Shown piece after piece: positions 1 to 5,893 of a DNA stretch of 45,241 nucleotides; the first letter of the stretch is position 1; every line of letters begins with the position of its first letter. Where the stretch lies: NCBI GenBank assembly GCA_026461395.1, contig JAPJNA010000053.1:1-45241 (forward strand), in the 5' to 3' direction. The position numbers and the translations under genes were made by a program. The notes under the pieces are model-generated. The model was not told the DNA's origin. It saw only the letters and a list, made by a program, of their open reading frames with translations, and made no database searches. The DNA is from Chthoniobacterales bacterium. Its GTDB lineage: Bacteria > Verrucomicrobiota > Verrucomicrobiia > Chthoniobacterales > UBA6821.

Positions 1-728
1 CCCTGCCAGATCCCCAGTCGGAGCATCGGAGCTAGCAATGCCGCCATCACACGTGATTCGTCTGCGGGGGTTGCGAACTTCCAATCACGTAGAAGTCCTC
101 GGAGCAACTCGGCTGAGTCTGGAAGTGACGGGCTTTCCATCTGGACGCTTGTCGTCACCAGAATCCCTGATTTGGGGTCGTATCCCTCAGCTTGCACCGA
201 ACCATCGGCTCTCATTGGTGGGAAGGAGACAAGACCTCGGATCTCAGGCAATATTTTTATCGCTTCCTCGCAGGCCATGATGCCAACAGCGTGCTCTGAA
301 CTGAATAAGCGCGGGGACTCATCTATCAGCGCTCCCTTTTTCTTCTCCTTTGACTTGATACGAAACTGGGTGTGTTTTTCTGCCACCGACCGAAACCCGT
401 GTTGGTTGATGGTTTTGAGAAATGTCACCTCATCAGAGCCGACGGTTTCGGTTTTCAGCACTACAAAGTTTTCACCTCTGACAAAGATTTCCTGCACAGG
501 TGCTAAGATCTCCATCAACTCGGTGGCGCTCTCTCGAGTGGTCGTGTAGTTGCTCGGGAGGTAGGCGATCGGCAAACCATTGTCCGGCAAATCGGAGTGA
601 GCGGTTGACTGCAAATCATCCCACCCACCTGCCACTGGGAGCTTTTTCCTATGCTCGGCAGCAGCCGCCTTTGGTTCGGCTAGGTTGTTCAGTGAGGTGA
701 AGGCCTCGAATTCTTCAATATTTATCAT
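1..728 (-). CDS. Replicative helicase/primase-associated protein of a mobile element (3' part missing)
   Basis: An open frame starts with ATG at 728 and runs without a stop to the left edge, giving 242 residues of a longer protein. I read the N-terminal half as the region that precedes the ATPase domain in phage and plasmid replication helicases: it has the 'EGYDPKSGILV' pattern followed by an acidic and hydrophobic 'DSAELLRGLLRDWKF' and 'ESRVMAALLAPMLRLGIW' segment, which I know from helicases that follow AEP primases. No Walker motif is visible, because it would lie beyond the edge. It starts 4 nt after the stop of the upstream primase gene, so the two are co-transcribed. The exact helicase superfamily (SF3/D5-like or DnaB-like) cannot be decided from this fragment. 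Confidence 0.6.
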   Translation of the reverse strand, partial: MINIEEFEAFTSLNNLAEPKAAAAEHRKKLPVAGGWDDLQSTAHSDLPDNGLPIAYLPSNYTTTRESATELMEILAPVQEIFVRGENFVVLKTETVGSDEVTFLKTINQHGFRSVAEKHTQFRIKSKEKKKGALIDESPRLFSSEHAVGIMACEEAIKILPEIRGLVSFPPMRADGSVQAEGYDPKSGILVTTSVQMESPSLPDSAELLRGLLRDWKFATPADESRVMAALLAPMLRLGIWQ

Positions 729-732
729 ATTT

Positions 733-1722
733 TTAGTTGGTTGTTGATCCTAGGGCTCTCAACGGCCTTAGATCGGGTTGATTGCAGATGGGTGTCCCGT
801 CTGCTGCGGGGTTCAGGTAAAGGAGTCGTTGCCACTGATCTGTCTCCTGCCGGTAACAACCGGGGAGTCTCGTGAGCCTGACAATGGAGAGGGCACCCTT
901 ATCGGCACCGAGCTTTATGAGCGGCGCCGCGATCCTCTGTTTGATTTCCTGCCAATCTTGGGCGGTCTTAGCATCAACACGAATCAGGGCATGAATACTA
1001 CGCCCTCCACTGGTAGAGATGCTCGTGATCGGCAGAGGTAATCTTGCCAGCGCTTTAATCCAGAGATCGGTTGGAGCATTATCACTTTCAACGACCATGT
1101 ACCTATACGCCGTGAGGTTTTCCTCGGACCTCATCGTCACACCCCGTGGATTTGTCGGCGATTTGACTCGGTCCACTTGCAGCCACTCGCCAGTGATAGG
1201 GTTTGGAAGAAACCAGACACCCAACCCCATTCTGGGAGTGCGTAGAGAGTCTATCTCTCCCTCCTCATAGGGGACTTCATCACGATTGCGTTCCCAGACA
1301 ATCCCCTCGCGCTTGGTAAATTCGTCCGTCATAAGCACCCTCTCCCCGGGTGCATAAATCGCATGAAGAAACTCCAGTGGGCTACATTCGTCGGGTCTCA
1401 CCTTCGACTTCTGGAATAACCCTCCCTCACCAAAGTCTGTGATAACCTCAGCAAACCTCTCAAGCACTTCGGGGGCGTAAACCGCGCATATCGGCGGAGG
1501 ATACTTGATGCCTGGATCCGCGTTGTAGGCCTTGCTGACGGCACGCTCGATCTCACCAGCTTTAGGATCACGGGTCAGTTGTTGGCGAATAATCTCCATG
1601 GCTCGGATACTTGGTAATCCCTCTGCACGGCATGCATTGGCGGCTTCGAGGCACCAGATATTTCGTCCCTGCCCAGGTGCAGGGCACGGGGGGAAGTCTT
1701 GGAATGGTTGTGGCGTCTTCAT
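733..1722 (-). CDS. AEP-type primase (PrimPol-like) of a mobile element
   Basis: Protein of 329 residues if it starts at the ATG at 1722, which overlaps the TGA of the preceding HTH gene as ATGA. An in-frame ATG at 1734 is an alternative, and the frame is open further upstream to 1974. The C-terminal half carries an archaeo-eukaryotic primase signature as I know it from phage and plasmid primases: an acidic pair in 'VVESD' (about E212 and D214), the histidine motif 'SGGRSIHALIR' (about H244), and 'RLTRLPG' (about 282-288). In this setting it would prime replication of the excised element together with the helicase encoded 4 nt downstream. The first 110 residues, rich in Pro and Cys, are not recognised. 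The acidic motif is ExD, where many AEPs have DxD. Confidence 0.72.
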   Translation of the reverse strand: MKTPQPFQDFPPCPAPGQGRNIWCLEAANACRAEGLPSIRAMEIIRQQLTRDPKAGEIERAVSKAYNADPGIKYPPPICAVYAPEVLERFAEVITDFGEGGLFQKSKVRPDECSPLEFLHAIYAPGERVLMTDEFTKREGIVWERNRDEVPYEEGEIDSLRTPRMGLGVWFLPNPITGEWLQVDRVKSPTNPRGVTMRSEENLTAYRYMVVESDNAPTDLWIKALARLPLPITSISTSGGRSIHALIRVDAKTAQDWQEIKQRIAAPLIKLGADKGALSIVRLTRLPGCYRQETDQWQRLLYLNPAADGTPICNQPDLRPLRALGSTTN

Positions 1723-1910
1723 TTGCGGGCACATTTTCTGATGAATGAGTCGAGATCCGACTGGCGGATCCGAATACATCGGCCTGATATTCTTAGGTGG
1801 CCGAGGGATCCGTTGCGGCACTTCTCCCAAACAGTACGCTTGGAAAGGCGCAGCTTTGGGGCCGCTTCTGCCGGTGTAAACAGGTCTATTGGAGGATTGT
1901 ATATTTTCAT
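1719..1910 (-). CDS. AlpA/Xis-like helix-turn-helix protein
   Basis: A 63-residue protein that matches the small excisionase/AlpA type of MerR-like HTH: 'LFTPAEAAPKLRLSKRTVWEKCRNGSL' forms the HTH (residues 10-36), followed by the wing 'ISGRCIRIRQSDLDSFIRK'. Such proteins bind DNA to direct excision of integrative elements or to activate their replication genes. The gene is the first of a minus-strand operon: its TGA overlaps the ATG of the primase gene (ATGA), and the helicase follows. It diverges from the repressor gene at 2016, the classic layout of a lysogeny switch. A longer frame on the same strand overlaps it completely, but the motif fit favours this short frame as the real gene. Confidence 0.78.
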   Translation of the reverse strand: MKIYNPPIDLFTPAEAAPKLRLSKRTVWEKCRNGSLGHLRISGRCIRIRQSDLDSFIRKCARK

Positions 1911-1980
1911 AGTTCATCGAAGATACTCGCAATGGCGGCGGGCGCAAGATATTTTGTTCATTCTTACTGGACATTTTCGC

Positions 1981-2008
1981 TTTACATTCAGCACGTACTG
2001 TGTAAATA
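1981..2008 (+). promoter_or_regulatory. Candidate operator and promoter between repressor and AlpA/Xis genes
   Basis: TTTACA (1981-1986) and TGTAAA (2001-2006) form an inverted repeat around a second near-palindrome, CAGCACGTACTG (1989-2000). TTTACA and the downstream TAAATA (2003-2008) are also spaced like -35 and -10 boxes for the plus-strand repressor. The repressor ATG at 2016 lies only about 8 nt after the putative -10, so that transcript would be nearly leaderless. This is the natural site for autoregulation by the repressor. The call is pattern-based. Confidence 0.45.
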
Positions 2009-2015
2009 TCATCCC

Positions 2016-2600
2016 ATGATCAGCCTTAAAAAAACCACGGTTGCAGTAATTCGCGAGATTCTTGGTTCACCGACCGGTTCAGAACAGGTTTTCTCAAAGA
2101 TCACCGGACTCTCCATATCAACCATTAAAAAAATCTCCGCAGGTAACTATCCGATCACGCCCAAAAGCGCCTTGGCAATATCGGAAGCCCTAGGCGTCAG
2201 CGGAGACTGGATTAACCGAAATGATCCCAATATCCCGCCGTTGGAAAGGGATAACAGGACTCCCTACACGCGAGATTCCTACGATCGTTGGTTAAAAAAG
2301 AAGGGAACTCAGATCGGACCCAGTGACAATCTCGGCGTTGCCCAGGATCTCATCGAAATAATCGAATGCTTCCTGATTGCAGTAATCAAAAGAAATGGGA
2401 GTTCCGCTCGGAATGATCTATGGGAATTTGCCCGACTGATGGAAGGGAAGTATGGCCCATCAAGCCACGGCGGCATTTCTCACGAATCCATTAGCGGCGT
2501 TTTGTCCCAAATGGCGCGAGTATCCAAATGGCGCAACCACAAGCCAGATGCCAACGAATCCATGGATGAAAAGGAGTATATTTTTCCTGAAGATTCGTGA
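2016..2600 (+). CDS. Phage-type HTH repressor
   Basis: Protein of 194 residues. The N-terminal 65 residues resemble a Cro/C1-type helix-turn-helix: 'SEQVFSKITGLSISTIKKISAGNYPITPKSALAISEALGVS' (split here only by reading; residues about 20-62) gives the two helices and the conserved 'a.aisealgvs' end. The remainder is charged, has no protease motif of LexA type and is not recognised. The start at 2016 was chosen because the upstream extension (from 1797) runs through the divergent promoter and the AlpA/Xis gene. It diverges from the AlpA/Xis-primase operon, so it probably keeps that operon silent. It is the gene closest to tRNA-Gly. Confidence 0.65.
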   Translation: MISLKKTTVAVIREILGSPTGSEQVFSKITGLSISTIKKISAGNYPITPKSALAISEALGVSGDWINRNDPNIPPLERDNRTPYTRDSYDRWLKKKGTQIGPSDNLGVAQDLIEIIECFLIAVIKRNGSSARNDLWEFARLMEGKYGPSSHGGISHESISGVLSQMARVSKWRNHKPDANESMDEKEYIFPEDS

Positions 2601-2616
2601 AGAACTTGGCGTAACT

Positions 2617-2647
2617 CCAGGCAACTTCATGCAAGTGCTGGTTTTTT
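2617..2647 (+). terminator. Intrinsic terminator after the repressor gene
   Basis: CCAGGCAACTT and AAGTGCTGG pair as a 9-bp stem with two single-base bulges around a short loop, and are followed directly by six T residues (2642-2647). It lies 17 nt after the repressor stop and points in the same direction. Confidence 0.6.
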
Positions 2648-2709
2648 ACCTATCGCCCGCAGAGGCAGTATTTATAAGCTCAAAAGAGGTATTTTGCATC
2701 CGAGGAAAG

Positions 2710-2783
2710 TGGAGCGGGTGAAGGGAATCGAACCCTCGTCTCAGGCTTGGGAAGCCCACATTCTACCATTGAACCACACCCGC
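2710..2783 (-). tRNA. tRNA-Gly (anticodon CCC)
   Basis: On the minus strand the acceptor GCGGGTG pairs with CACCCGC, followed by an encoded TCCA end. The D arm is GTTC-AATGGTA-GAAT, the anticodon loop TTCCCAA gives CCC, and the T arm AGGGT-TCGATTC matches bacterial tRNA-Gly(CCC). The 3' end points to the mobile-element genes on its left, consistent with use as an attachment site. The region 2601-2709 between repressor and tRNA holds only the terminator and no gene that I can see. Confidence 0.93.
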
Positions 2784-2790
2784 AAAAACT

Positions 2791-3363
2791 TTAGTCCCAG
2801 GAGTTGATCAAGGTCCTGGTAGCGCCAGCGCCAGTGCCATTCGTCCAGATCGTCCAGACACCGACATGCTTGCTAAGCGTGGTAGTGGTCGTGACCGTGT
2901 TGCCTGATTGCGCAGGCATATTGGAAAGGCTATTTGCATAATTGGTATCGAGCTTGATGGAATATGCACTGTTTGAGCCGAAGGGATCGCAGAAGGCGCC
3001 GCTTGAATTGGTGCCACCCTTCCCGTTTTTCCAAGCGTTGGCCTCTAGAAAAATCAATCTGCGGGGGTTGTTCACTGTGTCATTCGCAGTGCAGAGGATT
3101 GTCACGAGACCACTGTCCACACTGGAGGCACTCACCGGCGGCAGGCGGCCGTACTCGGTCTCATAAGCCGTGATCGCCGTGGCGATCTGGACGACTTGGT
3201 TCTTGGCCGTAGTTTTCTTGGCGGCATTAATCGCCGACTGGCCTGCAGGGAAAAGAAGGCCCATCAGGATCGCAATGATGGCGATCACCACGAGCAGTTC
3301 GATCAGTGTGAAGGCGGAGGCTTTTTTGTGGCATCTTTCATTAACGGACGGGAGGAAGTTCAT
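2791..3363 (-). CDS. Type II secretion/type IV pilus pseudopilin-like protein
   Basis: Protein of 190 residues with a class III prepilin leader. A charged start with KK is followed by A/FTLIELLVVIAIIAIL, with cleavage expected before F and the conserved Glu at position +5; the hydrophobic helix runs on to 'GLLFPAG'. The body 'KNQVVQIATAITAYETEYGRLPP' is the usual pseudopilin linker helix, and the Ser/Thr/Asn-rich C-terminal half is a probable beta domain. The prepilin peptidase at 11274-12401 is the likely processing enzyme. Many such single pseudopilins are scattered in verrucomicrobial genomes. The ATG at 3363 was chosen because it gives a short leader; an ATG at 3426 is in frame. It diverges from rnr across 76 bp, which must hold both promoters. 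Confidence 0.85.
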   Translation of the reverse strand: MNFLPSVNERCHKKASAFTLIELLVVIAIIAILMGLLFPAGQSAINAAKKTTAKNQVVQIATAITAYETEYGRLPPVSASSVDSGLVTILCTANDTVNNPRRLIFLEANAWKNGKGGTNSSGAFCDPFGSNSAYSIKLDTNYANSLSNMPAQSGNTVTTTTTLSKHVGVWTIWTNGTGAGATRTLINSWD

Positions 3364-3439
3364 CACGCTACTTTCTGCCGACTCTCTTCCCGTACAAGCA
3401 TTTTCTTGTTTGCTTCGTGAAAGCATCAGAAGGTGAAGC

Positions 3440-5893
3440 GTGCCCAAGAACAGCCCACGCGGCCCCAAGAAAGCGAAACATCCTCAACCCTCTGGCAAAC
3501 CCACACCCGGGAAGCCGCGGAGCGAACGACCCACCTCAACCCGACAGGAAAAGGCCCGAACCGAGCAAGGGGCCACGAGACAGCGTTCCGACGAAAAACC
3601 CAGGAAGTCTGGCAGACCTAGGAAGCAGAACGGAGCCAAGCAGTCACCTGCATCCCGTTCATCGCATTCTTCGCAAGGAGGCAAACGCTTGAACGAGCGT
3701 CTTGTCAACGATCTGATCCGCCTCTTAGAAGGGAAGGGAGAGCCTCTTCAGGCCCCGACAATTGCCAGCTCTCTTCGGATGGATCGTGACGATCTCCCCC
3801 TTCTCGACCACACACTGGCCGTTCTGGAGAGGGAGGGGCGTATTGTCCGTGTACGCCAAGATCACTATATCCTGCCAGAGAAAGCCGATCTCTTCACAGG
3901 TAAGCTGCAGATCCATGCCGGCGGATCCGGCCATGTACTGGCAGACCAGGAAGGGGGCAAGGATCTCTTCATCTCCGCGGATAATCTCGGCACCGCTCTG
4001 AACGGCGACCGCGTCGTGGCCCGCCTTATCAAGGAACCTCGCTTCCATGGCCGCCCACGCCGCGACGGGCGCGAGGAGGGGCGCATCATCCGCGTCGTTG
4101 AAAGGGTAGGCGCTCCCATCGTTGGCACGTTGCAGAAGACTGCGAATTTCTACCATGTCGTCGCCGATGACCCGCGCTTTCCCCGCACTCTCTATGTCCC
4201 CTCTCTCGAGGGGGCGAAAGTTGGTGAGAAAGTGGTCGCTCAACTCGACCGCTGGGAGAATAGCCAGAGCAACCCCGAGGGACATATTGTCGAGGTGCTC
4301 GGGGCCGCCGACGCGCCGGGCGTCGACATGCTTTCGGTCATCCATAAGCACGGCCTGCCGCGCGATTTCCCCGCCCCAGTCACCATCGAGGCGGAAAAGT
4401 TCGGGAGCACCATCACAGCCCGCGATCTCGAGGGCCGTGAGGATCTTCGCGACCGCAGCATCATCACGATCGATCCGGACACGGCCCGTGATTTCGATGA
4501 CGCCATCGAAGTCCAGCCCATGGATGACGGCTGGGAAGTGGCTGTCCATATCGCCGACGTCTCCCATTATGTGAAGCACGGCACCGGCCTCGACAAGGAG
4601 GCCCGCACACGCGGCAACAGCGTCTATCTGGCAGACAGGGTCATCCCGATGCTTCCGGAAAATCTCTCCAACGGCCTCTGTAGCCTTCGCCCCGACGAGG
4701 ACCGGCTCGCCTTCAGTGTCTTCGCGCATATCAAGCAGGACGGCAGTGTGGGCAAGATCCGCTTCGGACGCTCGGTCATCCGAAGCTGCGCGCGCCTCAC
4801 CTACCGGCAGGCGCTTGCCATGCTCGCATCCCCCCCGACTGATGAAGTGAGCCGCCGTGTCCATGCGGCGTGGGACTGCTCCTCCACACTTCGCAAAAGG
4901 CGCTTCGCCGCCGGAGCCCTCGACCTCGAGATGCCCGAGGTGAAGGTCTGGCTGGATAAGGAGGGCCATCCCGTGAAGCTCGAACTTGTTGAGAACGATA
5001 TCTCCCACCAGCTCATTGAGGAGCTCATGCTGCTAGCCAACGAGCAGGTCGCGCGCCATCTCAAGAACAAGCGCCAACCGAACATCTACCGCATCCACGA
5101 GAAACCCGAGCTCGAAAAGCTCGACGAGTACCGGGAGCTAGCGGCCACCTATGGAGTGAAGGCTGGCGATCTGAGCAATAGGGCCGAGCTGCAAAAGCTA
5201 CTCGACGGCCTTAAGGGGAAGCCTTACGCCAGTGCTCTGAAGATCGGCCTGCTCAAGAGCCTCAAACGTGCCCGCTATTCGCCCGATCCTCTGGGTCATT
5301 TCGGCCTCTCGAAGTCCGACTACAGTCACTTTACGAGTCCCATCCGACGCTACGCAGACTTGCTGACTCACCGCTCACTAGCCCGCGACCTCGACCCGAA
5401 GCAGCAGGGGCCTAACTCCACCGATCTCGGCCCAGTCAGCGAGCACCTCTCCACGACCGAACGCACCGCTGCCGACGCTGAAAAGGAATCAGTACGGCTC
5501 AAAAAGCTCGAGTACTTCAGCAAGCTAGCGGAGGCTGCCACCGAAGGAGGCGTCGCCCCATCCTTTGATGCCAGGGTTATCGAGGCCCGCAACTACGGCC
5601 TGATGGTCGAGTTGCCCGAGGCAATGATGACAGGCCTCGTGCCCGTCTCCTCGATGGATGACGATTTCTACATCTTCGACGGGCCCCGATCCCGCCTTAT
5701 CGGAAAGAATTCCCGAAAAATCCTCAAGGCTGGTGACGAGTTTCGCGTCCAGGTAGCCCGCGTCGATAACTTCAAACAGCAGATCGACTTCAAGATCGCC
5801 AAGGAGCCCCGGGCAGCCAAAACCGCAAGGTCCAAAACAGAAAAACAACCCCATGGGGGCAAGGCTGACTTCATGGAAGGGCTGAGCTGGTGA
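3440..5893 (+). CDS. rnr: Ribonuclease R
   Basis: An 817-residue 3'-5' exoribonuclease that degrades structured RNA. Order of parts: a very basic, Pro/Lys/Arg-rich tail (1-80); a winged-helix region (about 85-145); cold-shock domains (about 150-290); the RNB catalytic domain with DPDTARDFDDA, whose D345, D351, D353 and D354 match the four metal-binding aspartates of the family; and a C-terminal S1 domain (about 720-800, 'DARVIEARNYGLMVELPEAM'). A second, short Lys-rich tail follows. The start is GTG at 3440 with the ribosome-binding sequence GAAGGTG just upstream. The long basic N-terminus could help RNA or ribosome binding. bioB follows after 60 bp. Confidence 0.95.
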   Translation: MPKNSPRGPKKAKHPQPSGKPTPGKPRSERPTSTRQEKARTEQGATRQRSDEKPRKSGRPRKQNGAKQSPASRSSHSSQGGKRLNERLVNDLIRLLEGKGEPLQAPTIASSLRMDRDDLPLLDHTLAVLEREGRIVRVRQDHYILPEKADLFTGKLQIHAGGSGHVLADQEGGKDLFISADNLGTALNGDRVVARLIKEPRFHGRPRRDGREEGRIIRVVERVGAPIVGTLQKTANFYHVVADDPRFPRTLYVPSLEGAKVGEKVVAQLDRWENSQSNPEGHIVEVLGAADAPGVDMLSVIHKHGLPRDFPAPVTIEAEKFGSTITARDLEGREDLRDRSIITIDPDTARDFDDAIEVQPMDDGWEVAVHIADVSHYVKHGTGLDKEARTRGNSVYLADRVIPMLPENLSNGLCSLRPDEDRLAFSVFAHIKQDGSVGKIRFGRSVIRSCARLTYRQALAMLASPPTDEVSRRVHAAWDCSSTLRKRRFAAGALDLEMPEVKVWLDKEGHPVKLELVENDISHQLIEELMLLANEQVARHLKNKRQPNIYRIHEKPELEKLDEYRELAATYGVKAGDLSNRAELQKLLDGLKGKPYASALKIGLLKSLKRARYSPDPLGHFGLSKSDYSHFTSPIRRYADLLTHRSLARDLDPKQQGPNSTDLGPVSEHLSTTERTAADAEKESVRLKKLEYFSKLAEAATEGGVAPSFDARVIEARNYGLMVELPEAMMTGLVPVSSMDDDFYIFDGPRSRLIGKNSRKILKAGDEFRVQVARVDNFKQQIDFKIAKEPRAAKTARSKTEKQPHGGKADFMEGLSW

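Follow-up and report, generated by a model that had tools for sequence, protein, structure and literature searches.

A tRNA-gene genomic island with a phage-type replication core and restriction-modification cargo, probably mobile, in a Chthoniobacterales bacterium

Background

At the left end of a contig from the draft genome of a Chthoniobacterales bacterium, a compact group of regulatory and replication genes adjoins the 3' end of a tRNA-Gly gene, and the contig ends within the outermost of these genes. Such an arrangement raises the question whether the genes are one end of an integrative element and, if they are, where its other end lies and what class of element it represents. A preliminary description of the locus had favoured a phage satellite, or phage-inducible chromosomal island (PICI), using the tRNA 3' end as its attachment site. 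The window analysed here is the entire contig (GenBank JAPJNA010000053.1; 45,241 nucleotides; C28 below) from a genome of 2.03 Mb in 80 contigs (G000). All of the genomes considered are draft assemblies, and gene functions were assigned from profiles and motifs.

Genes at the tRNA-proximal end

The tRNA-Gly(CCC) gene, predicted by ARAGORN at 2710-2783 on the minus strand, is the target gene of the putative insertion and has been kept whole; its 3' end faces left, toward the start of the contig. On that side an HTH repressor of 194 aa reads rightward at 2016-2600 (plus strand, with 2016 as the best start; HTH_3, PF01381, 8.4e-05, at the cut-off), and the 105 bp at 1911-2015, between divergent genes, are taken as a promoter/operator region. 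Within them, the inverted repeat TTTACA-N14-TGTAAA at 1981-2006 is a candidate operator that may nevertheless, being short, have arisen by chance. Leftward from this region runs a coupled set on the minus strand: a 63-aa AlpA/Xis-like HTH_17 protein (1719-1910; PF12728, 2.6e-12, with TIGR01764 'excise' above the cut-off), an AEP-type primase (733-1722; phrog_2597 'DNA primase', 1.9e-20) and the N-terminal half of a helicase (1-728), which is cut by the contig end and continues on another contig, G000:C30:1-996 (plus strand). Profiles and ARAGORN thus confirm the repressor, the divergent AlpA/Xis-like gene, the primase and helicase and the adjacent tRNA 3' end that the preliminary description had read from the sequence.

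The reading frame of the primase is open to 1974, and a start at 1722 is likely because this ATG overlaps the stop codon of the AlpA-like gene (ATGA). Three motifs that an alignment of relatives shows to be conserved, ESD, SGG+S(I/V)H and VRL(T/S)RLP, fit the catalytic core of AEP-type enzymes, and the assignment to that type is based on them; none of the Pfam AEP models matches the protein. A search of PDB sequences with the primase and helicase gave no matches, and an AlphaFold model of the primase made without an alignment (mean pLDDT 39.5) was unusable.

To the right of the tRNA gene, the host flank at 2791-5893 contains a pilin-like gene (2791-3468, minus strand) and the gene for RNase R (3440-5893, plus strand) and is syntenic with tRNA-Gly and mscL in members of the same genus. 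The GC content is ~52% in the element and ~56% in the flanking host DNA.

Attachment sites and the far end of the element

Querying the genome with window positions 1-2900 revealed an exact second copy, at G000:C30:21783-21805 (minus strand), of the final 23 bases of the tRNA gene (2710-2732), which we take as the att core. A direct repeat of the tRNA 3' end had been anticipated and is present, although the extent suggested for it (2710-2760) was too long. The 23-mer matches only the tRNA gene and the far end in the 2.03-Mb genome with up to one mismatch allowed. A tyrosine integrase of 439 aa (C30:20387-21706, minus strand; phrog_1, 1.6e-27; PF00589 just above the cut-off) lies 77 bp inside the far core; there is no integrase between the repressor and the tRNA, and its placement at the opposite end, as had been foreseen, is borne out on C30.

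When the first 18 bases of the core were searched with one mismatch allowed, three copies were found in the genome, at the tRNA, at C30:21788 and at C30:22028, and a reversed control gave zero matches. We weighed the copy at C30:22028 as another possible end of the element and rejected it because the same copy sits 241 bp past the tRNA in G004, a genome of the same genus, with the intervening stretch conserved. This stretch of 240 bp after the tRNA-Gly core, ending in the 18-bp copy, is represented by G000:C30:21806-22045 and by positions 4587-4926 of locus L049 (G004:C13), where the 18-bp copy is joined to a relic of an element end, as though an earlier insertion had left its mark there.

The outer end of the element at 2560-2709, just inside the core, is conserved in relatives whose repressors differ: it is 96% identical to its counterpart in genome G010 and, together with the core, 94% identical over 151 bp to that in genome G005.

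Joining of the two contigs

The ends of C28 and C30 do not overlap, and their junction is therefore one that we infer. The window piece of the helicase matches positions 453-509 of phrog_29234, weakly (E 0.04), and the C30 piece matches positions 556-722. When the two pieces are placed on the intact helicases of relatives, residue 241 of the first and residue 2 of the second are ~4 residues apart, so that ~2 codons would be missing between the contigs. Independent support comes from G004 and G001, both of the same genus, in each of which RNase R, tRNA-Gly and mscL are found on one contig and in the order that a single insertion between C28 and C30 would predict. Contigs break within the same module in three genomes, which may be due to strain mixtures. 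Taken together, we put at roughly 0.93 the probability that window positions 1-2732 and G000:C30:1-21805 are one integrated mobile element of ~24.5 kb.

Gene content of the far part

The ~20 kb of the putative element on C30 begin with the C-terminal half of the helicase (C30:1-996), which is followed by a protein with a weak match to the C-terminal part of P4-type D5 proteins (C30:1425-2102), an unknown protein (C30:2368-2868), a zinc-peptidase-like protein (C30:2887-3522), a penicillin-binding transpeptidase (C30:3744-4766), two more unknown proteins (C30:4770-5318 and C30:5525-6328) and a PD-(D/E)XK exonuclease (C30:6325-7146). The transpeptidase is short and has a lipoprotein-like start; its DNA shares ~70% identity with part of the chromosome (G000:C41:8616-9379), and it may be a captured host gene. 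A small gene of 56 codons at C30:7420-7587 (minus strand), weakly similar to DUF6290, has many similar copies across the genus with DNA identities of 77-91%. We suspected at first that it was a non-coding repeat, but it can be read as a gene for a small protein that is multi-copy in the genus.

The cargo also includes a full type I restriction-modification locus with Fic, which encodes, in order, HsdM, Fic, HsdS, a GHKL-ATPase protein, HsdR and a YgjP-like metallopeptidase (C30:7751-18585). Between it and the integrase lie genes for a UmuD-like S24 protein (C30:18601-19059), a second Xis-like HTH_17 protein (C30:19043-19339) and, judged from its sequence only, a HAD-like phosphatase (C30:19400-20236, minus strand). 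No TerS, TerL, capsid, P4-specific or relaxase gene was recognised among the element proteins scanned, nor could any vestige of terminase, head, tail or lysis genes be made out in the scanned proteins; Rfam gave no match on C30.

Occupancy and transfer among relatives

If the element is mobile, some relatives might be expected to have an empty site. Such a site is present in G004, which the host flanks of G000, when joined through one core, match continuously across the junction, over 341 columns at 91%. With the direct repeat and the integrase, this bears out the earlier proposal of one end of an integrative element that uses the tRNA-Gly 3' end. The relic mentioned above lies 241 bp further on in G004 and consists of the 18-bp core copy followed by 117 bp of outer-end sequence at 88% identity; it implies that the tRNA-Gly locus was probably inserted into more than once. 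Other genes occupy the interval between the tRNA and mscL in genomes G002, G011 and G008. In G008 two exact 23-bp cores ~1 kb apart at tRNA-Gly (L053, G008:C221, 1696-2702) are possibly another small att-flanked insertion or a remnant of one; a methyltransferase-like gene lies between the two or close to them. No prophage was seen at tRNA-Gly in the genus genomes examined, many contigs of which end there.

The genes of the element are far from constant neighbours of the tRNA: among the genus genomes examined, they adjoin tRNA-Gly only in G000 and in G010 (CAIOJL010000194.1), a Spartobacteria metagenome-assembled genome of a sister species that has the same element end. Over the 1166 bp that lie inside the att core the two genomes share 98.7% identity, as compared with 90.6% for the DNA of RNase R and 74% for the adjacent pilin region; the repressors are 98.5% identical in amino acids. 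The excess of identity in the element end over RNase R and the pilin region fits a recent transfer, which is likely to have crossed species. The G010 contig ends within the primase, and the remainder of the element was not found in that assembly.

A related end in a third species, G005 (L184, G005:C90, 10056-11111), adjoins ribD instead of the tRNA gene and carries 38 bp of tRNA-Gly 3' sequence; in G013 the same ribD locus is without the element and has a degenerate sequence resembling the tRNA 3' end. Between G005 and G000 the repressors are 44% and the AlpA-like proteins 70% identical in amino acids. The combination of a constant end and a diverged repressor, seen on the one contig from G005, suggests an immunity-type exchange.

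Relatives of the primase-helicase module

Within the order, relatives of the primase were found in 29 and relatives of the helicase in 25 of 213 genomes (G000 counted in both). Some of these are in prophages: G124 and G003 have TerL close to the primase, and G006 has it close to the helicase. The closest match in an isolated phage is in Akkermansia phage Moulinsart (ON453896.1); the replication pair of primase and helicase is phage-type. Genome G038, from another family of the same order, contains an island of ~5.5 kb (L165, G038:C31, 5906-11392) with an integrase, a gene for a 252-aa protein, an HTH_17 gene, primase, helicase and TerS. No structural genes were recognised nearby and no direct repeats were found around it; it resembles a small satellite and is a candidate minimal satellite with undefined ends. 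In G015 (L136, G015:C36:5001-13810) an HTH-primase cluster is accompanied by genes for an HNH nuclease and, possibly, a tape-measure-like protein; it is separated from RNase R by a few kb, on the opposite side from the tRNA, and is possibly a prophage. Scans of IMG/VR with the primase, integrase and helicase, and a search of a plasmid collection with the primase, returned no relatives, and no GpA-type TerL prophage was found anywhere in G000.

A possible life cycle

These observations can be accommodated by a scheme in which the integrase would recombine a circular form of the element into the 3' end of tRNA-Gly(CCC), the element's own copy of that end keeping the tRNA whole. The repressor would hold the divergent AlpA-primase-helicase operon off through the 105-bp region; upon induction, the AlpA/Xis-like protein and the integrase would excise the element, and the primase, helicase and D5-type protein would replicate it. 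The host might benefit from the type I restriction-modification and Fic cargo, which could exclude phages. Movement between cells would probably take place in phage particles, through satellite-like hitch-hiking or transduction, as neither particle genes nor conjugation genes could be recognised; this is the least certain step. The basis of the scheme in the sequences is the integration by a 23-bp core at the tRNA, the far-end integrase, the variable occupancy and the restriction cargo, and from these we infer operon control, excision, replication and transfer.

What kind of element is it?

That these are ordinary, non-mobile chromosomal genes beside a tRNA has nothing to recommend it beyond the fact that genes commonly cluster near tRNAs, and it is exceedingly improbable in the light of the empty site in G004, the att repeat with its integrase, the step in identity at the tRNA boundary relative to G010 and the restriction of element genes beside the tRNA to G000 and G010 among the genus genomes examined. 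The presence of these genes beside the tRNA in every relative would likewise have spoken for such a reading; in the genus they were found there in a single other genome, G010. A decayed prophage, which kept its integrase, regulators and replication genes while its structural genes were swapped for cargo, would account for a primase-helicase module held in common with Moulinsart and with TerL-bearing prophages of the genus and order. We consider it unlikely, however, as no trace of genes for terminase, head, tail or lysis was recognised in the scanned proteins, the coupling of the operon is intact and G010 has a near-identical end, suggestive of recent mobility.

We class the element as a tRNA-gene genomic island that has a core of phage or satellite type and restriction-modification cargo, because the features tested for such islands are all present: a direct repeat at the far end, a tyrosine integrase inside it and an empty site. 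It may also work like a satellite. A true phage satellite of the PICI or P4-like kind, which is a narrower form of this explanation, would depend on a helper phage, which would induce its replication module and in whose particles its DNA would be packaged by way of its own signal or of a packaging gene that we failed to recognise. The association of repressor, AlpA, primase, helicase and integrase without recognised structural genes, the genus prophages with a related primase or helicase beside TerL, and the minimal integrase-HTH-primase-helicase-TerS relative in G038 speak for such a satellite; the 24.5-kb size, the integrase at the end opposite AlpA, the lack of a GpA-type TerL prophage in G000 itself and of relatives in the IMG/VR scans speak against it, as does the outcome of the search for capsid or interference genes that the preliminary description had called for, in which no TerS, capsid, interference or P4-specific gene was recognised. 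We hold the satellite reading to be possible at somewhat less than even odds; the proposal of an integrative element with a regulator-replication core has stood, and the PICI or satellite label itself has not been established. It is rather doubtful that the element is instead a helper-independent defence island, which excises but travels solely through generalised transduction or natural transformation, its replication genes serving maintenance after excision. Its large type I restriction-modification and Fic cargo, and the failure to recognise packaging or conjugation genes, would suit that account, but a dedicated primase, helicase and repressor exceed the needs of passive transfer.

A broader and tentative idea, to which we would give little more than a third of our confidence, is that the island belongs to an undescribed family of Verrucomicrobiota satellites built on one primase-helicase module common to local temperate phages, ranging from ~5.5-kb TerS-bearing islands as in G038 to 24.5-kb defence islands, with repressors swapped behind a constant att end, as the comparison of G000 and G010 with G005 suggests. 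The part of the literature that was covered contained no account of a satellite or similar island from this bacterial group. What began as a hint at the edge of a contig can now be treated as an element whose two ends are placed, with an empty site, a second insertion site and, in all likelihood, a recent transfer across species. The full type I restriction-modification locus that it carries would provide a concrete route for phage defence to spread in the group, and the TerS-bearing relative in G038 makes the satellite question directly testable.

Comparison with known systems

Gram-negative PICIs are defined by an integrase, a replication module and a master regulator, by unique att sites that prophages never occupy, by a size of typically 12-15 kb and by the absence of structural or lytic genes (PMC6092414). 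The element shares with them an integrase, an AlpA-type regulator and a replication module, without recognised structural genes, whereas at ~24.5 kb it is outside their size range, its integrase is at the end opposite AlpA, no TerS was recognised in it and its restriction-modification cargo is large. With P4-like satellites (PMC8628076) it has in common an integrase, an AlpA-like gene, primase and helicase functions and defence genes as cargo, but homologues of psu, delta, sid and epsilon were not recognised among the proteins scanned with Pfam and PHROG, and its primase and helicase are separate proteins and not of the alpha type. The definition of PICMI is int, alpA and a DUF3987/DUF5906 primase next to fis (PMC10803314). 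An int, HTH_17/AlpA and primase core without capsid remodelling genes is again common to both; the element, in contrast, is at tRNA-Gly and not at fis, is several times larger and has a primase of a different family, with no match to DUF3987 or DUF5906 in the element.

Relaxase or conjugation genes, as would mark an ICE or IME, and the terminase, capsid and tail genes of an intact prophage were not recognised in the element. Moulinsart (ON453896.1) has a related primase (34% identity over half of the protein), after which come a large protein and an integrase feature, but it is a complete phage that possesses tail and lysis genes. The G038:C31 island is similar in its integrase, HTH_17, primase and helicase (39% identical) and in their compact order, and differs in its size of ~5.5 kb, its TerS gene and its lack of restriction-modification cargo. 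The fullest correspondence is with tDNA islands, as mapped by Islander (PMC4383910): a tyrosine integrase, the whole target tRNA gene at one end, a displaced 3' fragment at the other and cargo between them. Nothing in this comparison excludes the element from this class, within which its particulars are the phylum of its host and its phage-type replication core.
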